A stretch of 63,627 nucleotides of DNA from a virus: the IMG/VR virus record IMGVR_UViG_3300021341_000078, positions 1 to 63,627 of that record; one strand, written 5' to 3'. Positions 3,800 to 63,627 of this stretch are shown here, in pieces (position 1 is the first letter of the stretch; each line of letters begins with the position of its first letter). The translations under genes and the position numbers were made by a program. The notes below the pieces were generated by a model. The model saw nothing but the letters and a program-made list of their open reading frames with translations. It had not been told where the DNA came from and ran no database searches.

Positions 3800-4051
3800 T
3801 TGCATCAACCGATTAAGCATGGAAAAAAAATTACCACACTTTTGGATTACATTTCTGAAACAGCGATCAACAACGACTTATGTATTTCCGAACTTTCCGA
3901 GAAGGCCGGATTTCATTCAGGGCAAGCGGCTAGATGGATCGATGGCAAAGCAAATCCTACTCTTTTTAATTTCCTTAAACTATGCCAAGCTGCTGGCAAA
4001 GTAATCGAACTAAAAGGTAAGGGAATGCAATTCAAGTACATGGTGAAATAG
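3800..4051 (+). pseudogene. HTH (XRE-like) regulator, probably N-terminally truncated
   Basis: The frame encodes a helix-turn-helix region (ISELSEKAGFHSGQAARWID) and ends KYMVK. The reading continues upstream to about 3732 without an ATG, so either TTG at 3800 starts a short protein or the 5' end has been lost. The segment resembles XRE-type regulators such as antitoxins. It lies next to integrase debris and a tRNA, typical of an eroded mobile element. Confidence 0.5.
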
Positions 4052-4061
4052 ATAGAGTCGG

Positions 4062-4340
4062 TTAGATTTCTGGAAAATTGTTTTTCAAATGACCAATATC
4101 GTGAACCCCTAGTTGTCTTAAATATTGATCAACCTGATCTAGGCTATGGTGTCTAAGTTGTATTTGCAATTGCTTTACATTCCCCCGTTATTAATGTAGT
4201 TTGCAGCACCAGTATGCTTCCAAGAATATAGTTTGTACTCATGGGTAAACCCTAGCTCTATAAGAATTAGACGGTGGCGCCTTCGCATCGTATTCATATC
4301 CATAGGTTTGGTGATATCCCATCAGCTGGGGAATACATAT
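4062..4340 (-). pseudogene. Decayed tyrosine recombinase C-terminus
   Basis: Minus-strand reading gives a Bacteroidota phage-integrase C-terminus in two frames. The first part contains YKLYSWKHTGAANYINNGG, the active-site 'S-x-K-H-T-G' region. After a frameshift near 4180 it continues as QIQLRHHSLDQVDQYLRQLG, the second catalytic His region and the Tyr of the nucleophile motif. A stop interrupts the upstream part near 4330. It sits just beyond the 3' end of tRNA-Ala, the classic place for an integrase, and records an older insertion at this tRNA. Confidence 0.78.
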
Positions 4341-4537
4341 TCTATCGGATCGTGTCAGGTGATAAATTGCAAACAAGGCAAAACTTAGTCAAATCATCAG
4401 GAGTATAAATCTCGGAAAAGAAATTTATCACGTGCCATAGTTTGAAATATGACACGTTTGTGCAGAACCCTCGTAGACAGTTGTGGATATTTCTGATTTG
4501 TAATTGTCTATTTTTAAGGGTGTTAAGATGTGTTTAG

Positions 4538-4611
4538 TGGAGCTAGTCGGAGTCGAACCGACGACCTCTTGACTGCCAGTCAAACGCTCTAGCCAGCTGA
4601 GCTATAGCCCC
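4538..4611 (-). tRNA. tRNA-Ala(GGC)
   Basis: A 74-base cloverleaf. The 7-bp acceptor stem carries the G3:U70 wobble that is the alanine identity element. There is a D-arm GCTC...GAGC, an anticodon loop CTGGCAG with anticodon GGC, and a T-arm with GTTCGAC. CCA is not encoded. The 3' end points left, toward the integrase remnant, so the phage genes on the right lie on its 5' side and were not inserted through its 3' end. Confidence 0.95.
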
Positions 4612-4761
4612 ATTACTGTGTTTATCGCTTCTTGTCTCTTGTCTTATATCAAATGTGACAAGTTCTTATGACAATAAATGACAATTTCGACCGCGAACAT
4701 AAAACAAAAATAGCACTCAAACAATTCCCGTGCTAATATTTTAATCTTTTTCTGAGACACT
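4612..4761. other. Probable left boundary zone of the element
   Basis: 150 bases between tRNA-Ala and the first phage-like gene. It contains TGTGACAAGTTCTTATGACA-type short repeats (tgacaa/tgacaat) but no gene. The left attachment site is likely here or nearby; it cannot be fixed without the right end. Confidence 0.35.
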
Positions 4762-6786
4762 TTACATCTTCTCTAAATGTTCCTTCTTTGCTCTAATGAG
4801 ACTATCTAGTCTTTTTAACTTTTCTTTACTCTTGGATATGTCAGACATTAAAAAACTTTGTTGCTTTCCTAAAATCCTTACTTTCCTCTCTATATCTTCT
4901 GTGTATTGAGCATACTGTGCTCTGACTTTTTTATCATAGTTATGCACGTCCATCTCCGAACGCATTTTCTTCTTCTGTATCTCCAGTTCTATCTTCTCTA
5001 GCTTCGCTTGCTTACGTTGTATATCTGTCTCTAAGTCTTGTTTCCTGTTGCCCCAATGCTCCATCAAGTGCTCTACTCCCATCTTGTCCATAGCAAGATC
5101 CTGCATAGCAAAACGTATATCATTCTCTTTATCTTTTAGGAGGTATAAAGAGTCCTTGAGCTTATGTACTAATTCCTTCTCTCCATTCTGCAATCTAAGA
5201 ATATAGTTTTGTGCTCTAGAGTCTAATAGATCAACCTTGGATTTGTGTGAGGCGTACAGCTCGTTTGCTTTGCTAAGTAAGACACCAGCTTTCTCGTGTG
5301 AGAGATCTGACCTGTCTTTCATGTGTTGCATCTGCAACCTAAACTTATCTACCTCGTGTGCGTACTTGTTTATTGTGTCGGTGACTTGCAGAATACTCCT
5401 ATCATTGCGTAGTCTTTCATCAGACATAGCGTGTTCTACCTGCCTCAAGCTAAGGCCCACTTTTAACATCTCATTGCTATGATCTTGTTCTAGCTGTCGC
5501 AATGCTAAACGCTCATCACCTAGTGACTGCTCTAGCCTCAAAAACCGTTCTCCCATAGTAGCTAGTAGATCCATCTGTTGCCTATCCAGTCTAAGAACTT
5601 CTTGTCCTACTCTTAACAACGTATCGTTTATCTGCATCTTGATAGAGTTGTCTAAGGTGTTTAGTTGCATCTTTATTTCATACACATCATGTGTGATACG
5701 ATTCTCTATATCTGTCACCCAGTTTAAGATACTCTCACGCAAAGAGTAGAACTTGATCTCAGTGTTGTGCTCTACCTCTCTGATACTCTCATACACTCTA
5801 GCCATCTCTCGCTCTATAATCCTTTCAAGTTGGAGTTTGTCCATCTCTCCTTTATGCCTCAAGTCTTTTAGACCAGACTCAAAGTCATGTTTGATTTGCC
5901 CAAGATCTATCCTAACCTCAGAGAAACCCTTCTCTGTCTTGTATTGGTTCTCTATTACTTTCTCTTTTAACTGTTGGTACTTCTCTGAGTACTGCTGTCT
6001 GAACTCAAAGAAAGCCTCTCTCATTTCTGTTTTGAATTGTAGGTACTCTGCTTTGTTCTCGTATCTCTCTTTTATGATCTCATTGATCTTTGCGTTTAGT
6101 TGATTGGTGCGTTCGTTGAAAAAGTTCTCGTACTCACGCATCTTTTGTTGTTCGTAGGACTCCATATGCTCAATAATTTTAGCTTCATTATATACTACCT
6201 CTGGCTCTGACACACCAAACACATCTTCTAGTACTGACTCCCTTGCTTTATACGCGTGGTTTTTGATCTGCTCTTCTGCTTGCTCTTCTATCTTTGCTTT
6301 GTACTCGTTTATAACCTTTGTAGCATAATCACTATATTCTTGCTCTCTCTCTTTCTCTCTACCGTTTAGAAATAGCTCTTTAGCAAGTAACTCAGCTTTC
6401 TTATTGTTTAGCGTTGTAAGAAAATCTTTTACCATCTCGTCCGCTTTCTCTCTCGCTGTACTCTCCAACTTCTCTTCAAACTCTTTATAAACATTTCCTC
6501 TTTGTTCAAACCAATAGGTGTCCGCCTCGGCTTTCTTTGTGTCTATCTCTCTATCAATCTCTCTCCAGTAGTAGTTAGCGACAGCAACAACCAAACCTAC
6601 ACCTAGCAGGAAGGTGACTACGTACGTCCAGTTATATGCAAGGAAGGAGAGTAAAAGGTAAGCAGGGTATAACAACACAAGTACGCCTACAACGTAATAC
6701 CAAGTTTTTTTTGTTTCTTTATTTGTTGTGGGTTGTTCCTTTTTGTTGTCTCCGAATATTTGGTCGTATTCAGAATTAGAAAACAT
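4762..6786 (-). CDS. Two-TM protein with very long coiled coil
   Basis: 674 residues. An acidic/polar N-terminus is followed by two transmembrane segments (about residues 28-50 and 52-72), then almost 600 residues of charged heptad-rich coiled coil with few prolines. No enzyme motif is visible. The start is 5 bases from the divergent ATPase start. Membrane anchor plus cytoplasmic rod next to a HerA/VirD4-like ATPase suggests a scaffold for a DNA-transfer or partition machine; this is inference. About 19 glycines and no in-frame UGA, with a TAA stop. Codon use (AGA, CTA) matches the phage, so I place it inside the element. Confidence 0.75.
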   Translation of the reverse strand: MFSNSEYDQIFGDNKKEQPTTNKETKKTWYYVVGVLVLLYPAYLLLSFLAYNWTYVVTFLLGVGLVVAVANYYWREIDREIDTKKAEADTYWFEQRGNVYKEFEEKLESTAREKADEMVKDFLTTLNNKKAELLAKELFLNGREKEREQEYSDYATKVINEYKAKIEEQAEEQIKNHAYKARESVLEDVFGVSEPEVVYNEAKIIEHMESYEQQKMREYENFFNERTNQLNAKINEIIKERYENKAEYLQFKTEMREAFFEFRQQYSEKYQQLKEKVIENQYKTEKGFSEVRIDLGQIKHDFESGLKDLRHKGEMDKLQLERIIEREMARVYESIREVEHNTEIKFYSLRESILNWVTDIENRITHDVYEIKMQLNTLDNSIKMQINDTLLRVGQEVLRLDRQQMDLLATMGERFLRLEQSLGDERLALRQLEQDHSNEMLKVGLSLRQVEHAMSDERLRNDRSILQVTDTINKYAHEVDKFRLQMQHMKDRSDLSHEKAGVLLSKANELYASHKSKVDLLDSRAQNYILRLQNGEKELVHKLKDSLYLLKDKENDIRFAMQDLAMDKMGVEHLMEHWGNRKQDLETDIQRKQAKLEKIELEIQKKKMRSEMDVHNYDKKVRAQYAQYTEDIERKVRILGKQQSFLMSDISKSKEKLKRLDSLIRAKKEHLEKM

Positions 6787-6791
6787 AAACT

Positions 6792-8549
6792 ATGGATTAT
6801 AATTTCCCTTTCAAACCACAGGCTATAATATCTAAGGAAGAGATACAAGCGCTGTTTAAAGATGAAGAAGAGGATAGTGTTGTGTTAGGGTTTACTTATG
6901 ATATCGACTTCGATGTTCTCTGTAAGTTTTATAATCTTTGGTGCAACCGTGTGAAACGTCTAATAGACCTTGATATATTACAACACAAAAAACGCACCAA
7001 TCGTTCGGCTGTGTTGTTGAATTATAGAGGTTTTACTTTCGATGAGTTCCAAGATCTATATAATCCTCATGTTACGTTCCCCACAATATACCCTTTCTTT
7101 ATACAATCTGGTATAGATTCAGAGAAACAAAGGCAAAGAATACTTTATAAATACCCAGCAGACAATGACCAAGAAAACTACTTGACGGCTATCAAAGACA
7201 GTAAGTCTTATCAAGTCATGAATTTTTTTTTGCGTAAACAGCCAAACTTCCCTATCAAAGTACCCATAGAAGCTAAAACAATGCACGAACTAGTATTAGC
7301 TGGTACTGGTTCTGGTAAGTCTGTTCTACTCGCATCAGAAGTATACAACGACTCCTACAAACTACCTACATGGTCACAAGTAATTATAGATCCACACGGT
7401 TCTTTTGCTAGACTAGTTTTTGAGTCTAAGTTACACAAGCATGATGAACGTGTGATGTTTTTCGATATAAGGATGCTACTAGAAGGATGGCGCTGGGGAA
7501 TCAACGCATTAGACATAAGGAAAGGGAACATTCTAGAGAAGAACAACGTGATTGACCAGTTAGCTTCTGCCTTTGCTGACGTTCTAAGTAAGGAGGGTGG
7601 TGAGATGAGACAGAACGTCAATACGGTGATGAAGAAGTGTCTAGAGTTCCTTATAGAGAGCAGAAGTGATGGCAAAGACTACACGCTGCAAACACTGCTA
7701 GATCTTGTGTGTTATGAAGAATACATTCTAAAAGAAGCACAAGCCTACGATAAATTCTTTGAAAAGGATTTCACTCAAACGGAATCAGGAACAGTTAAAG
7801 CGGTAAGAAGGAGATTGCGCGCAATCATAGACGATAAGGTTTTAAACATGATACTAGGTGGACAGAGTACCTTTGACTTGGAAAAAGCTATAAACAGCAA
7901 TAAGATACTCATATTCGATCTAAGTGCGGTAGGAGAGGAATCACAACAAATTATTGGTAAGTTCCTTGTTGCAATGGTGAAAGGTTACGTTAGGAGAAGA
8001 AGAAAAGGAATAGATGATCTACACACACTGCTCAAGATAGATGAGTTCCAAAACTTCATTACTGGTAGTCTTTCTTACATGCTGGAACAGCTTAGAGGGT
8101 ACGGCTTACACTGTTCTTTAGCCTGTCAAAGTATAGCACAACTAGGAGCATACCTACAAACAGTAATTGATAACACTGCTATAAAGATAGTGAAGGCTAA
8201 GTACGTTAAGAACATAATGTCAATCACGAACGTGCCAGAGAAGTATATCTGGAGAGGTAAAAGAGGGGACGACTCTACACAAGCAGACGGTCTTCTAAAA
8301 CTTGCAAAGCGTGAGTTCCTATTAGATGTTAGACAACGGCTACATGTTCAGTCATTCCACTCACCAGGGTTCCTTGTTACTAGTAAGAAGTATAGACTAA
8401 GTGAGGAGGAAATAGAAACGTCTATGAATAAACAGTTAGTGAACTTCTACCATAGAATAGATCGAGACGAGATGGGGGAAACAGAGTTCAAAGACCCAGA
8501 TCCAGACCCAGATGTAGACTTAGAAATGTTCGATGTTCCAGAGGACTAA
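6792..8549 (+). CDS. HerA/VirD4 (TraG/TraD)-like DNA-translocating ATPase
   Basis: 585 residues. After a 160-residue N-terminal domain the P-loop is ELVLAGTGSGKSVLL (about residue 175). The Walker B-like LLKIDEFQNF follows near residue 415 and a conserved CQSIAQL near residue 450, as in type IV coupling proteins and conjugative ATPases. The C-terminus is strongly acidic with repeated Asp-Pro. No hydrophobic anchor is present; the neighbouring membrane coiled-coil protein may supply one. It would move double-stranded DNA at the expense of ATP, in plasmid-like transfer, partition or segregation. It has roughly 28 glycines, none encoded by UGA, so it is readable in both codes. Downstream gene follows in the same direction. 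Confidence 0.82.
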   Translation: MDYNFPFKPQAIISKEEIQALFKDEEEDSVVLGFTYDIDFDVLCKFYNLWCNRVKRLIDLDILQHKKRTNRSAVLLNYRGFTFDEFQDLYNPHVTFPTIYPFFIQSGIDSEKQRQRILYKYPADNDQENYLTAIKDSKSYQVMNFFLRKQPNFPIKVPIEAKTMHELVLAGTGSGKSVLLASEVYNDSYKLPTWSQVIIDPHGSFARLVFESKLHKHDERVMFFDIRMLLEGWRWGINALDIRKGNILEKNNVIDQLASAFADVLSKEGGEMRQNVNTVMKKCLEFLIESRSDGKDYTLQTLLDLVCYEEYILKEAQAYDKFFEKDFTQTESGTVKAVRRRLRAIIDDKVLNMILGGQSTFDLEKAINSNKILIFDLSAVGEESQQIIGKFLVAMVKGYVRRRRKGIDDLHTLLKIDEFQNFITGSLSYMLEQLRGYGLHCSLACQSIAQLGAYLQTVIDNTAIKIVKAKYVKNIMSITNVPEKYIWRGKRGDDSTQADGLLKLAKREFLLDVRQRLHVQSFHSPGFLVTSKKYRLSEEEIETSMNKQLVNFYHRIDRDEMGETEFKDPDPDPDVDLEMFDVPED

Positions 8550-8654
8550 AAAAACAGCTGGTGTGTGACAGCTGCTTTCCCTTTACTTGTGGTGTGTAAT
8601 GATAGTAATAACGTAATTAGAGAAATTATCTTACACCTACTTATTACACAACAA

Positions 8655-9455
8655 ATGTCTAAAAGCAACAAAAAATATCTCAATGTGCTAAAGAACCTAG
8701 CCATCTATAAGTTCTTAACTCTAGAACAGATGGTGCGTTTGGGTGTGGATAACCATAAGACAAACATATCAACTGAGACAGCAACAATGATTAGGGATGG
8801 CCACGCCAATAAGATCTCAAAAAGCGACACCTCTCCAGCAGTTTACTATCTAACAAGAAAGGGTGCTACACGAGCAGAACACATCTTTGATATTACTCCT
8901 AGATACCCTAAAAGGAAAATGGATAAGATGGTAGACGACATGCCTCACAGACTATCAATTGTTGATCTACACATAGAGATATCTAGGTTCAACGTAATAC
9001 AACACTGGAGAGAGTTCGACTACGTAGGTGTGCAACGACAAAAGAACCTAGAGAAAGCAAGCAAGATAAATCTAGGACGAACATCACTAGTACCAGACCT
9101 AATCTTCAAACTCAACACAGACCAAGGACAAAGACTATACCTCGCAGAGGTGGAAAGAACAGAGGGTAAAACGGCAGACAAGTACTATGAAGACAAAGTA
9201 CACAAGTACATCACTTTGCTCAGTAACCAAGCGGTAATAAAAAGGAAGTTCAATGTGTCTCTAATGTATACAGTACTGTTCGTTATAGACGATAGAAAAT
9301 TCATAGAAAAACTAAAGAAAAAAATACTCAAGGATAAGAACGCTGAGAAGCATAACAAAAAGAAGCTCGTAGAGAGCTTCCTATTTAAGCATTTTGATGA
9401 TGATGTTTTCACTTGGACTAACCTAGAAGGAAAGCCTAGGTTGTTGTTCTATTAG
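8655..9455 (+). CDS. Replication-relaxation-like (MobC/winged-helix) protein
   Basis: 266 residues from the ATG at 8655, preceded by the ACAACAA-type leader common in this element. The frame is open further upstream to 8565, but those codons look non-protein. It begins with a winged-helix-like segment (FLTLEQMVRLGV...YYLTRKGATRAEHIF), then HRLSIVDLHIE and VPDLIFKLN...YLAEVERTEG, the pattern of the replication-relaxation family that accompanies plasmid mobilisation ATPases. Its 3' end overlaps the convergent lysis gene by 20 bases. No in-frame UGA; TAG stop. Together with the preceding ATPase it suggests plasmid-like behaviour of the phage. Confidence 0.68.
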   Translation: MSKSNKKYLNVLKNLAIYKFLTLEQMVRLGVDNHKTNISTETATMIRDGHANKISKSDTSPAVYYLTRKGATRAEHIFDITPRYPKRKMDKMVDDMPHRLSIVDLHIEISRFNVIQHWREFDYVGVQRQKNLEKASKINLGRTSLVPDLIFKLNTDQGQRLYLAEVERTEGKTADKYYEDKVHKYITLLSNQAVIKRKFNVSLMYTVLFVIDDRKFIEKLKKKILKDKNAEKHNKKKLVESFLFKHFDDDVFTWTNLEGKPRLLFY

Positions 9456-10500
9456 CCATCATATACTGGATAACTGGAGCGTAGTCTTTCAACTCCTGCT
9501 CGCTAGGCTCTCTAGTAGAGAGAATGGCTTTAGAGATCTGGAACTTCATTCTAGCAGAATACACATACTTAGCGTCTTTCTTATCTATCATAGCATACCT
9601 AGTAAACAAAGCTCGTAGATCCTCATACCTTACATAGAAGAATCCATTGTCGTACGCCTTTGGTCAGTAAGAGTTCATACACTTTATTAGCTGTGTATCG
9701 TCATCGTAACCAACAATAACAAACATGTGCCCACTTCACTTACTAACTTGAGCCACATATTCTGGATGGTTGCGTGTTGCGCTCCGAGAGATCTTATTTG
9801 TCCCTGTAATCACGGTTCTTCATTGAGCCAAAGCAGATTTAAGAGACGTTAAGTCGTTTACCCTGGTATATCATGCACAGATGCCTTTTGTTACGAGAAA
9901 CTTAACTTGATCCTGTAACCAACTACCATCTGTAATAGGGTTTACTCACTTTAGGTAATACTCTTGTTTGTATGCCTCTACGAAATCGTTCCAGTGTTTA
10001 TGTCAGTATAAGAAAGTAGAGCTTCATTCTATAGCGTTCATTATATTACCTGCGTGTGCTCCAGAGAAAGAACCGCAAGCATTACTAGTACTAGGAGTTC
10101 TTTTAACTCATTGGTTTTGTGGAGTCGTCTTAGGTCACAAGTCTACCTTCTTAGGTAGCTTCTGTTCTGATCAAAATAATAGTTCATGTGGTCGATCTCT
10201 ATCGTCTGGCTGGTCGTATGCAGCGTCTTGTTCCTCTCAGGCTAGCTCCTCTCCACTATCTTTTTTTTTTGATTTGGTCATCTCGTGGAATCCTACCGCT
10301 CAAGAACCTACTGCTATACCGTTAGCTATTCTTTGTTCAAGGTCTCACTCTCAAGTGAAGAACCCATAAACCAGACCGAGCAACAATGAAAGGAAGGGTA
10401 AAACTGACTTGTATCTGTCAGGTATCAAAGGCTTTATAATGTCGATAAATCATTTCACAATAGCTGCACCAGCTACTCCTACTGTTAGTTGTGTCTCCAT
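9436..10500 (-). CDS. Holin - papain-like cysteine protease fusion (lysis protein)
   Basis: 354 residues with more than 15 UGA-Gly codons. Residues 1-75 resemble a phage holin: VAGAAIVKGFIDIIKPLIP, then a hydrophobic hairpin and a short basic segment. After an acidic linker, residues about 135-320 form a C1/papain-like peptidase. The Cys is in TSNACGSFSGAHAG, the His in GSGHMFVIVGYDDD and the Asn in CMNSYGPKAYDNGFFYV, the equivalent of the family's NSWG motif, whose Gly is a UGA here. It is the last gene of the late operon. It probably permeabilises the membrane and attacks the cell wall or its proteins at lysis. A protease rather than an amidase or lysozyme warhead, fused to a holin, is unusual. 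Confidence 0.8.
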
Positions 10501-10791: not shown

Positions 10792-10902
10792 TTATAAAAA
10801 GAATAAACTGAGAATTTTTTCTCATAGCACTTTCTGAGAAAGCACGTCTAGTAGCATCATAAATATTCGCACCGCAATAATTAGTTTTGAGAACCAATTC
10901 AT
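10792..10902 (-). CDS. Short membrane-associated peptide of lysis cassette
   Basis: 36 residues, hydrophobic, with one UGA-Gly near the C-terminus. Lies between the DUF1353-like gene and the XhlA-like gene with 8- and 21-base gaps. Function unknown; could modulate the holin. Confidence 0.5.
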
Positions 10903-10909
10903 GTGTAGA

Positions 10910-11326
10910 TTATGATAAACACTTTTGTTTGAACAGCTTTTTTATTTTAGTAGGGAACTTATACCAGTACCACCAACCTCACAACGTAACACCTAGCCGC
11001 ATCGCATAAGCTTTTACCTTGTTTGTTCAGGAAGCTATCAGAGCCTCTCTGAATATCAGATTACTCATAGGAAGTCACAGATCCCTATAGTCTGTGAACA
11101 TCCAATCATGTAAACAAGCAGCGTTGATTGTGCGTGGCTCTACTCTCTGTATGAACATTCCGAACACCATAGGAACAGAACCTCAGTCGAACTCGTATCA
11201 CTCTGGCACTTCTACGCGCTCACCTTTCATGCTATCAGAAAGATACCAGATCAGAGGCTTGGTAGTAACTCGCTTGTTCTTCTTAGGAAGAGGAGTGATA
11301 GAGGTATAAGAAGTAAATTTTGACAT
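10910..11326 (-). CDS. DUF1353-like phage protein
   Basis: 138 residues. The sequence VPEGYEFDGGSVP (Gly residues partly UGA), then INAACLHDWMF and a C-terminal AMRLGVTLGGWWYW follow the DUF1353 pattern (P-x-G-x-x-x-D-G-x-S-V-P ... A-x-x-x-H-D). Members are common in phage tail/lysis regions; function is unknown. Four UGA-Gly codons lie at conserved positions. Confidence 0.72.
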
Positions 11327-34747: not shown

Positions 34748-35515
34748 ATGAATAAATTTAAGTTTTTTGTTGTAGTCTCGATTTTACTTATTGGTGTTTT
34801 ATATTATAGAATGTCTTTAGGTTCTTCTTATGCATATGAAGAGGAAACTGTGTTTACTGACTTAGAAGAAGCCTCTGAACCAGAAATAAAGTTTGACCCT
34901 CCCCAAATTTTTGCTGAACCTTATGATAAGAAAGATAACTTGAAGGATAAATTACTTAAAAAATGCAATATTTCTAGCCTAAAGAAAAAACTGCGAAAAT
35001 CCTGTGATTATAACGAAACTAGAAACCTTGCTGCAATAATTGCTTCCAAGTCTGAAGGAGAATTCAACATTGGTCAGGTATGTGATATTTGGGATTATTG
35101 TAAAGAGAAATGGGCGTATGTAGATGATCCTGCTACCTCTTTCATTTCCTCCGCATCCAATACAATCAGAATAGGGTTTAAAGGAGATTGTGATGATTTT
35201 GCGGTTGTAAATTCAGCTTTAATACTAGGTATTGGGGGAAGAGTACGGATTAATGTGGCTTATAATGATGATGGAGGTCATGCTTTTACTGAAGTAAATG
35301 TTGGGGATAGTAACATTGATGCCATACAGGCTTACATAAACTATCGATATAAAAAAAGATTAAAACAAAAAGTGAAAATTAACTACAGAGTTTCGTCCGA
35401 TGGAAACAAATGGTTGAATCTTGATTGGTTCTCTGAATATCCTGGTGGAAAGTATTTTAATTTTAATCATGGAACTTCTTATTATATATTGCAAGATTTC
35501 TGTGAAAGTTTTTAA
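34748..35515 (+). CDS. Transglutaminase-like domain protein, exported
   Basis: 255 residues. N-terminal hydrophobic segment (FFVVVSILLIGVLYYRM) acts as anchor or signal. Around residue 140 is FKGDCDDFAVVNSALIL with the catalytic-type Cys, then GGHAFTEVNV with the His: a transglutaminase-like core. Likely cysteine protease/amidase-like or cross-linking activity outside the membrane. AT-richer, with different codon choice (TTA, AAA, TTT) from the surrounding phage genes, opposite strand, no UGA, TAA stop. First gene of an inserted block; its end overlaps a downstream frame. Confidence 0.68.
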   Translation: MNKFKFFVVVSILLIGVLYYRMSLGSSYAYEEETVFTDLEEASEPEIKFDPPQIFAEPYDKKDNLKDKLLKKCNISSLKKKLRKSCDYNETRNLAAIIASKSEGEFNIGQVCDIWDYCKEKWAYVDDPATSFISSASNTIRIGFKGDCDDFAVVNSALILGIGGRVRINVAYNDDGGHAFTEVNVGDSNIDAIQAYINYRYKKRLKQKVKINYRVSSDGNKWLNLDWFSEYPGGKYFNFNHGTSYYILQDFCESF

Positions 35516-35534
35516 CTTTGAGAAAATTGAAGTT

Positions 35535-36209
35535 ATGGTATTCTACACTAGTGATGGAAAAGAAACATTTGGACCATTTTCTTTAGAAGAGTTAAAAGAA
35601 CAAGAACTTGTTAGTACTTCTCTGGTTTATAGTGAAGGAACGCAGTGGGTGAAAGCAATAGACTTACCTGAACTAGCAGATTTCTTTAAGGCCAAGGTCC
35701 CACCACCACCTCACATTCCACCTCCGCCACCTGTTCACCTAGTCAATCAAAATGTTTACCAAAGTAAGATATCTAACGATAAGCCTTTCTCTTTTGATTT
35801 TTCACAAGTGAAGGATAAGGCCTGGATAGTCGCTCTTGTAGTGTTTTTGATAATTGGCGGATTTGGGGTAAACTATTATCAAAATGTCAAAGAGACTGCA
35901 CGTTTAGAGGCGGAGGAAGTAGCAAGTAAAGAATTAAAGAAACAAGAAGAGGCAGCTAAAGCTGAAGAACAACGTATTAAGGAAGTCGAAGGAAAAATCG
36001 CAGAATCTAAGGAAAGGCTTGCGACACTTCAAGGTGATCTAGCCTATGCGCGCCGCAATCAAAGAGAGGTTGAAGAATTCGATATAACCAGAACGCCAAA
36101 GCAAGGTAGGGAGCAGAAGGCCGAAGCGAGAAGGGAAGTTAATAGAATTCAAAAACAGATCGACCAGGAGAAAAAAAGAATAGAAGATCTTGAGGCAATG
36201 CTATACTAA
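35535..36209 (+). CDS. GYF_2-domain membrane protein with coiled coil
   Basis: 224 residues from the ATG at 35535. Residues 1-60 (FYTSDGKETFGPFSLEELKE...VYSEGTQWVKAIDLPEL) are a GYF_2 domain, common in Bacteroidota membrane proteins. A proline-rich linker, one transmembrane helix (AWIVALVVFLIIGGFGVNYY) and a long charged coiled coil follow. GYF_2 normally binds proline-rich peptides. Standard code; stop TAA. Second gene of the inserted block. Confidence 0.78.
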   Translation: MVFYTSDGKETFGPFSLEELKEQELVSTSLVYSEGTQWVKAIDLPELADFFKAKVPPPPHIPPPPPVHLVNQNVYQSKISNDKPFSFDFSQVKDKAWIVALVVFLIIGGFGVNYYQNVKETARLEAEEVASKELKKQEEAAKAEEQRIKEVEGKIAESKERLATLQGDLAYARRNQREVEEFDITRTPKQGREQKAEARREVNRIQKQIDQEKKRIEDLEAMLY

Positions 36210-36294
36210 TTGGTCTATTACCGATTGACAGAGATTTGTACGGCCAGATTGACCGAAACAACTATCTTCAAATTTCAGTAAAATTAAATTGAGT

Positions 36295-36323
36295 AGAGCG
36301 TATCTAGAGTTTAGATACGCTCT
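36295..36323. terminator. Strong 12-bp hairpin between cargo genes
   Basis: AGAGCGTATCTA and TAGATACGCTCT form a perfect 12-bp stem with a five-base loop. There is no long T-run, so it may be a bidirectional transcription stop or a structured leader of the next gene. Confidence 0.5.
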
Positions 36324-36356
36324 ATTTAAATAGAGTACGTTCCGTCAGATACTATC

Positions 36357-37610
36357 ATGGGAATAAAGTCATTGATTTACCTTGTAACCGCTCTAGTAAT
36401 TAGTGTCGTAATCTTAGACATTAAAAGCGATATACACAAAAAAAGAACATATGATGAAGACTACAGTAAAGTCCTAAACATCAAGTATGGACTATTAAGC
36501 TTAGATGAGTGGAAAGACAAGGCTTATATCGTACTAAGACAAAACATTAATGAATTCAACTTCAATAATTCAGACAAGCAGACACTAAAGAGCCAGATTG
36601 AAGAACTACTATATACTCTTTTAGATGAAGTTAAGGAGGTAGTTGAGGAAAGTAGTACTTTGAATGGTGCGATTCCTAGCGAGGTGGCGAATTTTCTACG
36701 ATCGTTGGTGATCGATTTTGGAGTCATTGAGAATAATATACCTGATTTTGCCGATTCCATAATGGCAGAACTCAATGATCCTCGTAATCAAAATCAGGTA
36801 AAGAGCATAATCAATACCAAGTTGAGATCTATTCTGGAACTTGATGTGCCAAGGACTGACTTAGAGTTTAGATCATTCTATTTTGAGTTATATAACTGCA
36901 CAAGTTACTTGGAGTGTGGTGAAGAAATCAAAAACAAGTTAAAGCCTATAGAGGAAAGCATTGAATGTAAGAAGAAAATTCTATATGGATGCGCGGCTTT
37001 ATTGATTTTTATTGCCTTGTTCCCACAGAGAAAAGTAGATTTAGGAGATATTGTTCCTTTAACAATGGCAAGTATAGGTCTACTGTATGCAGGGATATAT
37101 TATCCAATGATTTCTGTTGATGCCAGGGTTAGTGAATTTGACTTTAAGTTGCTAGGAATGAATGTAGAATTTGGAGAACAAGTTATATTCTATCAATCGA
37201 AGAGTATTCTTGAAGTCGTAGGTTTGCTAATAAGTGAATCCAATATAGATAGTGTGTTTGTCGGGTTTTTAATCTTATTTTTTAGTGTCCTATTTCCGAT
37301 ATCCAAAATGTTGCTTTCCCTTGTATTTTACTTTAACCGTAAGAGCAGAGTTATATTCTATATAGTTACTAAGCTTAGTAAATGGTCTATGGCTGATGTA
37401 TTTGTGGTTGCCATCTTTATGTCGTTTATAGGCTTACGTAGTTTAGTGAAAAGCCAGGTTCTGAGTATTGAGAGCGGAAACCCATTCATTGACATTGTAG
37501 CAACCGACAACACCTCTTTAGAAATAGGTTTTGTCTGCTTCACCTTCTATTGTTTAATCAGTATTTTGATGTCTGCGAAAATTGGGAAATTACCAAAACA
37601 CTTCAGTTAG
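36357..37610 (+). CDS. PqiA-like membrane protein
   Basis: 417 residues. An N-terminal membrane segment and a soluble region of about 190 residues are followed by four hydrophobic helices. The last half has PqiA (paraquat-inducible protein A) features: YYPMISVDARVSEFDFKLLG, FLILFFSVLFPISKMLLSL and LSKWSMADVFVVAIFMSFIG. PqiA proteins belong to envelope lipid-transport systems. The soluble N-terminal domain is an extra part without known relatives to me. No UGA, TAG stop. Third gene of the inserted block. Confidence 0.78.
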   Translation: MGIKSLIYLVTALVISVVILDIKSDIHKKRTYDEDYSKVLNIKYGLLSLDEWKDKAYIVLRQNINEFNFNNSDKQTLKSQIEELLYTLLDEVKEVVEESSTLNGAIPSEVANFLRSLVIDFGVIENNIPDFADSIMAELNDPRNQNQVKSIINTKLRSILELDVPRTDLEFRSFYFELYNCTSYLECGEEIKNKLKPIEESIECKKKILYGCAALLIFIALFPQRKVDLGDIVPLTMASIGLLYAGIYYPMISVDARVSEFDFKLLGMNVEFGEQVIFYQSKSILEVVGLLISESNIDSVFVGFLILFFSVLFPISKMLLSLVFYFNRKSRVIFYIVTKLSKWSMADVFVVAIFMSFIGLRSLVKSQVLSIESGNPFIDIVATDNTSLEIGFVCFTFYCLISILMSAKIGKLPKHFS

Positions 37611-39003: not shown

Positions 39004-39101
39004 ACAAAAACTTTGTCTTGTTTTCGTCCAGATTAATAGAGTTGATTTGCTTTTAAGGTTATAATTTGGCACACTCAACGTACCAACACAAACCAAAAAC
39101 T

Positions 39102-40136
39102 ATGTTCGTACTAAATCTATTGGCTGGTATCACAGCCGTTTTGGGTGGCTACTACAGGTTTTTGAAGTTCTCTCGAATAAATGATGAGGTTGAAGAATAC
39201 AAGAAAAAGAACGGTAGAATATGGGAAAAAATAGATAACTCGAAATTCAGAGAACTACCAGCCATTGTTATTAGGTGGTATCTACGACTAAGTACGCCTT
39301 TCAAGAATATTTACGCGGAGCTTGAAAAAAGAGGCGTAAGTGGGAAAGTTCCTAAGTTCTTTTACTATGGCTTTATGATAATAGGCACAGCGTGTTTTAG
39401 TCTTTCCTTATTCGCTTTTCAAAACCACCTACTTTACTTTGTTTTCTTGCTTTTGTTCTTGGGTATCCCTGTAGTTTTTCAAAATGATCAGACCTTTAAT
39501 TTATCTGAAGGTCAGGGAATTTACGCTTTTGGTAAGTACATGACTATACTTTTCCTTAGCCTTTTGATAACATCTTCTTCGCTCATCCTTGGGGATGAAG
39601 TAACTTGGAATGATTTTAGTATTGTATCAGACTTAGAAGTAAGGACACTAGTTTTTTCGATACTTTTTAGCAATGTAATATTTGATCTTCTGACCGTATT
39701 CATAACGTACTTCATTCTTAAGAGAGCACTAAACAACCGACGATTCCTTTTCCTCTTTATATCCCTTGACATCATAATGTCAGCGTGTTTCTCTATTTAC
39801 TCCATCTATTTTGGCTTGCTAGGCACAGAGCAGAGTATAGACCTTCTGGAAGCAACACGTATGCTTATAGGTCTTTCTCCAGATGGTAGTATGTGGCAGT
39901 TTGGGTCTTACTTTTGGGCGATGCACACTACCTTCATACCGACACTAATATACTTGAGTGTGTTAATCCTGATGATTATAGCAAAGTACATAACGATACC
40001 TGTAGCTAATTTTTTCTACAGAGCAAGTGTTACTGAAGACCCATACATGATGTACGCCTTTTTCTACGTTACATTGTCTGGTATCTTCCTTTTGATAAGT
40101 TTTGTAATGGGATATTACTTAAAAAGCCCCTCGTAA
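39102..40136 (+). CDS. Polytopic membrane protein
   Basis: 344 residues from ATG at 39102, chosen over an in-frame TTG at 39066 because the leader ACCAACACAAACCAAAAACTATG resembles other starts in the element. Seven or eight hydrophobic segments, an N-terminal basic loop, no conserved motif recognised. About 20 glycines and no UGA, on the strand opposite its neighbours, TAA stop: readable in both codes. Could be superinfection exclusion or another prophage-expressed envelope function; this is inference. Confidence 0.65.
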   Translation: MFVLNLLAGITAVLGGYYRFLKFSRINDEVEEYKKKNGRIWEKIDNSKFRELPAIVIRWYLRLSTPFKNIYAELEKRGVSGKVPKFFYYGFMIIGTACFSLSLFAFQNHLLYFVFLLLFLGIPVVFQNDQTFNLSEGQGIYAFGKYMTILFLSLLITSSSLILGDEVTWNDFSIVSDLEVRTLVFSILFSNVIFDLLTVFITYFILKRALNNRRFLFLFISLDIIMSACFSIYSIYFGLLGTEQSIDLLEATRMLIGLSPDGSMWQFGSYFWAMHTTFIPTLIYLSVLILMIIAKYITIPVANFFYRASVTEDPYMMYAFFYVTLSGIFLLISFVMGYYLKSPS

Positions 40137-50847: not shown

Positions 50848-51891
50848 ATGTATACTTATAAGTTTAGAATCTACCCCAATAAAGAACAGCAAGCATTACT
50901 TGCAAATAGCTTCTGATGTTGTAGGTTTGTTTACAATAAGTGAATAGCGACTCGGCAAGAGATGTACAAAAAGTGAGAAAAGGCAAACTACTATACGCTT
51001 GCGTGACTACTAAAAGAACGGAAGCAAGAGCTGCCACGATTAAAAGTCGCATACTCGCAGTCATTGCAACAGTCCTTAAAGAATCTTGACCGTGCTTACA
51101 AAAACTTTTTTGCTAAGCGTAGCAAGTATCCACGCTTCAAGAAGAAGTTTGCAAAACAATCTTGTCACTTCCCACAACACACAAGCATAGAGGGGATGAA
51201 AATCAAGTTCCCTAAACTATGACTTGTGAGGTGTAAGCTCCATAGGAGTGTAGAGGGATGTATCAAGAATATGACTATCACACGTAATCCATCTTGAAAG
51301 TACTACGTCAGTATTTGCACTGACCATGCTCCACAAAAACCACGTGGCACTGGTAGTGTGGGCATTGATGTTGGTATTAAAGAACTTGGCTACTGTAGTG
51401 ATGGTTATGTGATAAAGAATCCAAAGTTTCTCAAGAAAGCTATGAAAAGACTAAAGAAACAGCAGAGATTCATGAGTAGAAAAAAGAAGGGAAGCAGAAA
51501 CAGGAATAAACAAAGAGTAAGAGTAGCAAGACTTTATGAGAAAGTAACCAGCCAGCGTAGGGATTACCTACACAAAGTGTCTACTAGACTACAGAAGAAC
51601 TATGAGACAGTAGTAGTTGAGGATCTAAATATCAATAATATGGTAAAGAACCATTGCCTTGCACAAGCCATTATAGATGTAAGTCGATGAATGTTCTTCA
51701 CTATGCTAGACTACAAAACGAATTTAATCAAGGTAAAGCCACACAACACATCCAAGACCTGTAGTAGGTGTGGTCATGTAAAAGAAAAGCTAAGTCTTGA
51801 AGTGAGAGCGTACACTTGCGGTGCGTGCTGACTGATAATCGATAGAGACTACAATGCTAGTCTCAACATATTAGCAAGGGCTACTACTTAG
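50848..51891 (+). CDS. tnpB: TnpB (IS200/IS605-type RNA-guided nuclease), recoded
   Basis: 347 residues, eight UGA-Gly, full length. RuvC-like triad: Asp in GIDVGIKELGY, Glu in TVVVEDLNINN, Asp in LIIDRDYNASLN. Zinc finger TCSRCGHV...YTCGACG. N-terminal bridge: SFGCCRFVYNKGIATRQ. No TnpA adjoins, so this is a TnpB-only element, mobilisable in trans or acting as a guide-RNA nuclease. Its UGA codons mean it works only where UGA is Gly. Confidence 0.93.
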
Positions 51892-52030
51892 ATTTTAGAA
51901 CTACTCGGTAGTAACTGGTAGCGTAGGTACTACGCGAACCGAGCTTAAGCTCAACGCCTGTGGAGAGTGTAGGTTACGAACTCTATGAAGCAGGAAGCCG
52001 TCGGACTTTAGTCCTTGGTAGTTCACATCT
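51892..52030 (+). ncRNA. Omega RNA / transposon right end
   Basis: The tail GAAGCAGGAAGCCGTCGGAC followed by TTTAGTCCTTGGTAGTTCAC is the standard 3' end of TnpB-associated guide RNA and the hairpin of IS605-type right ends. The preceding bases form further stems. The guide would be templated by sequence to the right of the GTTCAC end, about 52027 onward. Confidence 0.75.
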
Positions 52031-62370: not shown

Positions 62371-63627
62371 TTATAGCATATCTATCGCGTTCTGTAGTTT
62401 CTCTCTATCTCTCACTATACCCAAATACTTATTGGTAGTCTTTATTGAAGCATGATCCATAAGAGTTTTAACCGTCATTATGTCTACACCTTTTGATAGC
62501 GCTAGGGTAGGGGCTGTGTAACGTCCACTGTAGAAGCTAAAGTATCTACCATCGCTGAAACCTATCTTTTTGGAGACCCTCTTATAGCACTTATAGGAAT
62601 TGTCTCTCTCTCTTTTTGCCCTTCTCTCTGTCTCTACTGGATCTTTATCGAAACCATTTAGTATAGGTAGTATGTACTTACCTTTTGAGTCTATCTTTTT
62701 CAGTATCTCTAGTGCAGCCTCCTTCACAGGTTTCCCCAGCTTGTTCTCGAACCCAGTCTTTGATCTACTATACTTCCAAATGTCGTTTGTGATATCATCC
62801 CAACGCAACCGAGCTAGGTCTATAAGGTTCACCCCAAAAAAGAAATATGAGAGAACCCAGTAGGACATGTACTTCCATTCAGTGTCTGAGAAGGTGTTGT
62901 TGTAGTAATAGAAAACAACGCTTTCTTTTTCTTCCTCAGTCAGATCTCTAATTCTTTTCTTATTGGTTTTTTTCTTCCCTTTTCTTTTGCGCTCGTTTAT
63001 ATCATACCCGTTAGGGTTGTAGACTGTCTTAAAAGGGTTGTGCTTGGCTTCTATTATTCCCTCCTTGAGTGAGAAGGATATCAGTGTTTTTGTCCACTTT
63101 AGATAGTTGAAGCCGTTCATATCTCTCTCGTCGAAAGACTTTGTAAGTTTATTTATAGAGGACAGATTGAAGTCGCGTATTCGTTTATTGTCCAAGTCTG
63201 CTTTCTCAAATACAGGTATGAGTGCTAGATAGTTTTTTGCAGAAGATACATCACCAGACTCCACCTTGCGGTTGTATATGTCCATAGCAAACTCTCCTAA
63301 GCGCTTATCTTCTACCTGCTCAGTAGATCTATGCTTAGCTAACAGGCTAGAGAACTCTTTATAATCAAAGCTATCTATGAAATTATTCTGGTAGACGTGG
63401 TAGCAATCATCAAGGTACTGTCTGATATAACCATTCTTTTTCTGTCGACCTCTTTCGTGTACATTATAGCATCTTCTTTCAGAGTCCCAATTCTCTTTTA
63501 AGCAGGAATAGCCCTTGATCCTTTTCTTAGTGTTGTTACCTCCATACCTGATCTGTATGCAGACAGGGTGTGCACCATTTCTTAAAGTAACATGTTTGTC
63601 AAGGTAAGTGACAAAAGTAACCTTCAT
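62371..63627 (-). CDS. Tyrosine recombinase (integrase), Bacteroidota type
   Basis: 418 residues, complete, its ATG being the last three bases of the window. An Arm-binding N-terminus (TFVTYLDKHVTLRNGAHPVCI) and a SAM-like core-binding domain are followed by the catalytic domain: LIDLARLRWDDI, KYSRSKTGFENK, FYSGRYTAPTLALSKG and MDHASIKTTNKYLG with the nucleophile Tyr. The first catalytic Arg region is FFGVNLIDL, as in many Bacteroidota integrases. It drives integration and excision. About 20 glycines, none UGA. The attachment site should lie just outside the window. Confidence 0.9.
   Translation of the reverse strand: MKVTFVTYLDKHVTLRNGAHPVCIQIRYGGNNTKKRIKGYSCLKENWDSERRCYNVHERGRQKKNGYIRQYLDDCYHVYQNNFIDSFDYKEFSSLLAKHRSTEQVEDKRLGEFAMDIYNRKVESGDVSSAKNYLALIPVFEKADLDNKRIRDFNLSSINKLTKSFDERDMNGFNYLKWTKTLISFSLKEGIIEAKHNPFKTVYNPNGYDINERKRKGKKKTNKKRIRDLTEEEKESVVFYYYNNTFSDTEWKYMSYWVLSYFFFGVNLIDLARLRWDDITNDIWKYSRSKTGFENKLGKPVKEAALEILKKIDSKGKYILPILNGFDKDPVETERRAKRERDNSYKCYKRVSKKIGFSDGRYFSFYSGRYTAPTLALSKGVDIMTVKTLMDHASIKTTNKYLGIVRDREKLQNAIDML

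Follow-up and report, generated by a model that had tools for sequence, protein, structure and literature searches.

Three genes beside a tRNA-Ala gene

The window (the whole stretch of viral DNA that we analyzed, 63,627 nucleotides) holds a tailed-phage genome, and between the lysis end of this phage and a tRNA-Ala(GGC) gene found by a tRNA scan (4537-4611, minus strand) lies a group of three genes. They are present as open reading frames at 4762-9455, where the original prediction had claimed a conjugation-like trio: gene 1 at 4762-6786 on the minus strand (674 aa), gene 2 at 6792-8549 on the plus strand (585 aa), and gene 3 in a frame spanning 8565-9455, also on the plus strand (296 aa). 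Genes 1 and 2 are divergent, and the gap between their start codons is exactly the 5 bases that had been claimed (6787-6791). The gene 3 frame opens at a GTG at 8565, but the ATG at 8655 is the likelier start, giving a protein of 266 aa (8655-9455), since the 30 residues gained by using the GTG are supported by no homologue. Gene 3 overlaps tail-to-tail, by 20 bases (9436-9455), with a recoded holin/peptidase gene on the minus strand (9436-10500).

Gene 1 had been described as a membrane coiled-coil protein, and topology prediction agrees, giving a membrane-anchored protein with two transmembrane (TM) helices at residues 32-67 followed by about 600 aa that are heptad-rich and poor in proline and glycine. 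No Pfam family matches it above cut-off and no relatives were found in plasmids, so the role we propose for it below is based on its topology and position.

Gene 2 encodes a VirD4/TraG-like type IV coupling ATPase. Its matches to the Pfam families DUF87 (8.5e-11), T4SS-DNA_transf (1.6e-9, 37.6 bits) and TraG-D_C (4e-6, 27.2 bits) are all over the curated cut-offs, and it has Walker A and B motifs (GTGSGKS at residue 171 and KIDEFQNF at residue 415); it also matches the CD1115 VirD4-like model, below that model's cut-off. Of the earlier label "HerA/VirD4-like ATPase," the second half holds, as type IV coupling protein (T4CP) models pass cut-off, while HerA is the weaker name, the PADLOC HerA models scoring at most 20.5 bits. 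Given those scores, and a partner gene that belongs to Replic_Relax, we rejected a HerA-NurA pair for DNA-end processing. No TM segment is predicted in gene 2, and the N-terminal TM domain of the VirD4 type proper is thus missing. Coupling proteins with no TM segment, which function together with small separate membrane partners, are a recognized subfamily (PMC7434980), and gene 2 is at most a member of it. As such proteins are known to act together with separate membrane proteins, it is a natural guess, although only a guess, that gene 1 might serve as the membrane partner or anchor of gene 2.

Gene 3 was called a replication-relaxation protein in the original prediction, and it passes the Replic_Relax model (PF13814) with 32.5 bits against a curated cut-off of 25.3 (E 1.2e-7). 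In a pairwise comparison it aligns over the catalytic region with the TraX-type protein of pTEF1 (E 0.003), a MOBC-typed plasmid on which this gene is annotated with the Replic_Relax family name. D148, E165 and E167 of gene 3 fall on D152, E170 and E172 of that protein, so that the D...E-x-E arrangement is kept. Those D/E/E residues are reportedly (Francia et al. 2013) the catalytic residues of pAD1 TraX. PF13814 is listed as the Rel_PF13814/MobC (MOBC) relaxase superfamily, paired with VirD4 in streptococcal integrative and mobilizable elements (IMEs) (PMC5357655), and members of the MOBC class resemble PD-(D/E)XK enzymes and have a winged helix-turn-helix at the N terminus (PMC12857230). There is a weak match to the MarR family at residues 37-108 of the 296-aa frame (E 0.038). 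AlphaFold models made without an alignment had pLDDT values of 33-35 (35 for gene 3) and are unusable as evidence of fold. We regard gene 3 as a candidate MOBC-type relaxase, a predicted nicking enzyme.

It had been proposed to search for an origin of transfer (oriT) and relaxase-like sites. This turned up candidate repeats at 4656-4684 and 8555-8658, while a certain oriT was not found in the window. Between genes 2 and 3 (8551-8660, plus strand) are a short terminator-like hairpin (8555-8574) and a 16-nt inverted repeat (8585-8600/8643-8658), candidate elements for which terminator, operator and oriT are indistinguishable. Between the tRNA gene and gene 1 are three TGACAA repeats (4656-4684, plus strand), the sole such cluster that a repeat scan found in the window, and two more copies occur at the start region of the phage integrase gene. 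The cluster may represent arm sites for the integrase at a left attachment site, or else repeats bound by the relaxase; its placement fits a left attachment site in this interval, and the tRNA-Ala gene, on the host side of the trio, is a possible integration locus. Predicted folding at the two candidate sites is not unusual (z -1.6 for 4656-4684 and -1.8 for 8555-8658). A frameshifted remnant on the minus strand, at about 4050-4500 and adjoining the tRNA-Ala gene on its 3' side, resembles a Bacteroidota tyrosine integrase over the C-terminal half, which suggests that an earlier element occupied this site.

Genetic code and ownership of the trio

The phage genome is TGA-rich, and UGA must be a sense codon in nearly every gene between 9436 and 59360. 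When the recoded proteins were aligned with relatives from other phages, glycine stood opposite UGA at 57 of 95 aligned positions and tryptophan at none; by these alignments the phage is a UGA=Gly phage (code 25 type), and UGA=Trp (code 4) is ruled out for the genes surrounding the trio. UGA accounts for 34% of the glycine codons in the late phage genes. Free of UGA are the trio, the integrase, RadC, four genes around the terminase and an oxidase gene in the left flank, the lone UGA among these genes falling in a possible upstream extension (35400-35420). The trio does lack in-frame UGA entirely, as had been claimed, and is readable in the standard code; at the late-gene rate, the chance of zero UGA over its 57 glycine codons is about 5e-11. 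This is the pattern of stop-codon-recoded temperate phages, with recoded lytic genes and the integrase, RadC and trio in the standard code. Neither ARAGORN, Rfam nor our own scan found a phage-borne suppressor tRNA or other UGA-reading tRNA in the window. We rejected a tRNA-like sequence at 10860-10924, one loose match to a mitochondrial model, as unconvincing. Prophages reported in UGA=Gly lineages have UGA throughout (PMC10746230), and this, together with the UGA-free flank, points to a resident cell in which UGA is a stop codon. The trio, having no UGA, would be translatable in such a lysogen.

The terminase is nearest to those of phages of Flavobacterium, Cellulophaga, Bacteroides and Polaribacter, and RadC and the integrase are nearest to Bacteroidota plasmid proteins; these three genes point to a temperate phage of Bacteroidota type. 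The integrase, a tyrosine integrase with an Arm-DNA-bind_5 domain and no UGA (62371-63627, minus strand), lies at the prophage end opposite the trio. Both ends of the window coincide exactly with gene ends and the record is a virus record, so that the window looks like a trimmed provirus whose far attachment site is outside our view. Since the right end is cut at the integrase start codon, no phage end is pinned down.

The UGA-free genes around the terminase are of membrane or secreted type and lie on the strand opposite to it (34748-37610 and 39066-40136, plus strand). They include transglutaminase-like, GYF_2-plus-TM, PqiA-like and 7-TM proteins. Their codon usage fits the phage worse than that of the trio does, and they are likely lysogenic cargo. 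Among the recoded genes is one of TnpB/IS605 OrfB type (50848-51996, plus strand), followed by a weak match to RAGATH-18 RNA (51957-51996) that is below the gathering score.

Whether the trio belongs to the phage or to its flank was considered from composition. In synonymous codon usage, genes 1-3 lie at distances of 0.09-0.11 from the late genes and 0.17-0.19 from the left-flank oxidase. The tetranucleotide signature of the trio scores 0.46 with the first late segment and 0.10 with the left flank, and a model of the late phage genes gives per-codon scores of 0.058 (gene 1), 0.091 (gene 2) and 0.120 (gene 3), compared with 0.011 for the oxidase. These measures favor, and do not prove, ownership by the phage, in agreement with the original view of the trio as phage genes. 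That view was to be given up if homologues were always in host chromosomes; homologues were in fact found on plasmids, the search of chromosomes having been an insensitive one. No relatives of the left-flank oxidase were confirmed by a pattern scan. A screen with PF02534, which does detect the window's own gene 2, found no coupling ATPase of the T4CP family in four complete phages with related terminases, and the trio is therefore acquired cargo and not part of the phage core.

Relatives and known systems

A VirD4-type gene directly followed by a Replic_Relax gene occurs on pSfHH103a2 (Sinorhizobium), pAtCFBP6624 (Agrobacterium), an Embleya plasmid and the plasmid-like Mwe-JY31 (Microcystis); this order is found on plasmids of several phyla, with homologue identities of 15-29%. 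With a VirD4-like ATPase, a protein of the MOBC superfamily, and the pair located on plasmids, the trio is indeed of transfer type. A search of 50,697 phage records gave significant or near-significant matches to genes 2 and 3 only in Mwe-JY31. (A PF13814 screen of phage records misses the window's own gene 3, and we draw no evidence of absence from it.) Pattern scans of viral and genome collections confirmed no relatives of genes 2 and 3. Mwe-JY31 (PP438423.1), although deposited as a Microcystis phage, has genes for Rep3 and ParA together with a VirD4-type ATPase gene and one that is Replic_Relax-like, and it resembles a plasmid. A second record, Enterococcus phage Efs 1-1-1 (OR846621.1), was deposited as an unverified phage contig; it has a homologue of TraX (59%), matches T4CP weakly and is probably a plasmid fragment.

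CloDF13 is the prototype of MOBC1, the group of mobilizable plasmids that encode a coupling protein themselves (PMC7434980). Like the trio, plasmids of this type combine a coupling protein with a MOBC relaxase (MobB and MobC), have no type IV secretion system (T4SS) and rely on a helper (PMC7434980, PMC11389934). The likeness is one of described gene content, and the trio differs from CloDF13 in residing in an integrating tailed phage, in its TM-less ATPase and in the additional divergent membrane coiled-coil gene. The Enterococcus plasmids pAD1/pTEF1 resemble the trio in that the TraX-type gene is annotated as Replic_Relax, with D/E/E kept, and in the order of membrane protein, T4CP and relaxase. 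On pTEF1, however, the genes are co-directional and surrounded by conjugation genes. Its membrane protein (MAEBL) has about 6 TM helices, in contrast to the two of gene 1, and we rejected homology between them for this reason. The segments of pSfHH103a2, pAtCFBP6624 and Mwe-JY31 share with the trio the adjacent TraG-D_C and Replic_Relax genes, but at 20-25% identity, with Rep/ParA nearby and no gene 1. In these same-synteny homologues, moreover, the E-x-E of gene 3 and TraX is replaced by E-x-Y, so relaxase activity is not certain across the branch to which gene 3 belongs.

Elements that integrate offer further comparisons. The temperate Tyrovirus/Thrax Bacillus phages have a T4SS-type protein (gp17) beside a replication-relaxation protein (gp18), judged to be plasmid-acquired; unlike the phage studied here they have ParM nearby, and UGA recoding is not reported in the portion of the source available to us (PMC9703825). 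Genes 2 and 3 have no tblastn match in Bacillus phages. IMEs of streptococcal class 8 are integrating elements with VirD4 and a PF13814 relaxase (PMC5357655), but they have a serine integrase and no virion genes. The combination of coupling protein and MOBC relaxase is thus already known from CloDF13, pAD1 and IME class 8, and the Bacillus phages are a partial precedent. New here are the setting in an integrating UGA=Gly phage of Bacteroidota type, the divergent putative anchor gene, the kept D/E/E residues, and a genome split by code, so that the transfer genes can be read in a state in which the lytic genes cannot.

Possible functions

The original suggestion that the phage could spread by cell contact does not stand for the phage on its own, as no T4SS mating-pair gene (VirB4, VirB6 or VirB8) was found among the window ORFs scanned, small ORFs and sequence beyond the window excepted; the phage would at most be mobilizable by a helper. 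We tentatively prefer to see the trio as a phage-carried, CloDF13-like mobilization cassette, cargo that is readable in the lysogen and requires a helper T4SS, an explanation that in our estimation falls just short of probable. In such a scheme, the phage DNA, once excised and circular, would be nicked at an oriT by the gene 3 relaxase, which would hold it through an N-terminal DNA-binding domain; the gene 2 ATPase would couple the nicked strand to the T4SS of a co-resident conjugative element, and gene 1 would act in trans as the membrane tether of the ATPase. In a lysogen where UGA is stop, the UGA-free cassette could be translated and the UGA=Gly lytic genes would stay silent.

A second suggestion, that the trio lets the phage segregate as a plasmid, can be framed as plasmid-type maintenance, with gene 2 pumping or pairing excised DNA, gene 3 as an adaptor and gene 1 as a tether, yielding a stable episome with no cell-to-cell transfer. 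The FtsK/T4SS-type ATPase and Replic_Relax genes of Bacillus phages were read by the authors of the phage papers as plasmid replication or segregation genes (PMC9658697; PMC9703825), and plasmid copies of the gene pair sit near Rep and ParA. Profile searches of the window ORFs, however, found no ParA, ParB, ParM or plasmid Rep in the phage, which has a tyrosine integrase instead, and the D/E/E set of a nicking relaxase is intact in gene 3; we consider maintenance unlikely. Rather improbable, in our judgment, is a lysogen-expressed defense or exclusion system in which the ATPase, a PD-(D/E)XK-type nuclease and the membrane coiled coil act against incoming phages or plasmids. The trio is UGA-free and so readable in the lysogen, and gene 2 matches the PADLOC profile mad8 (1.3e-13), but genes 1 and 3 have no PADLOC match, no known system is complete, and the homologous genes elsewhere have plasmid replication and transfer genes as neighbors. 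The position of the trio, with the prophage end on one side and the lysis genes on the other, also suits defense, such a place being typical of cargo.

The trio might instead be owned by a separate mobilizable or decayed element accreted beside the phage at the tRNA-Ala gene. Elements may pile up at such a site, as the integrase-like remnant left of the tRNA illustrates, and the left phage end is unproven. On the other hand, in codon usage and tetranucleotides the trio is like the phage and unlike the left flank, gene 3 overlaps the recoded lysis gene with no repeat marking a junction there, the trio has no integrase of its own, and the sole TGACAA cluster lies to its left, with the two further copies at the integrase start region. 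This makes a separate owner distinctly improbable.

If the mobilization cassette is real, this would be a temperate phage with two routes of spread, virions and mobilization, in which the code itself separates the programs, the dormant or mobilizable genes being readable in the lysogen and the lytic genes not. It would offer a clean system for asking whether conjugation moves prophages. A bolder extension, which we rate as highly improbable, starts from the lytic genes perhaps being unreadable in the resident cell, given that UGA would be stop there and no UGA-reading tRNA is detectable. The lytic genes might then be readable solely in a UGA=Gly partner cell (Gracilibacteria/Absconditabacteria-like), the UGA-free cassette serving for contact transfer out of the silent lysogen into an attached cell, with the lytic cycle taking place there. 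The genetic code would in that case divide the life cycle of the phage between two hosts joined by conjugation.

Reassignment of UGA to glycine is, in the literature that we found, described for the Gracilibacteria, the Absconditabacteria and their phages, while the window points to it in a phage of Bacteroidota type. Of all the features of the window, the occurrence of UGA=Gly with terminase relatives that infect Bacteroidota is probably the most unusual.
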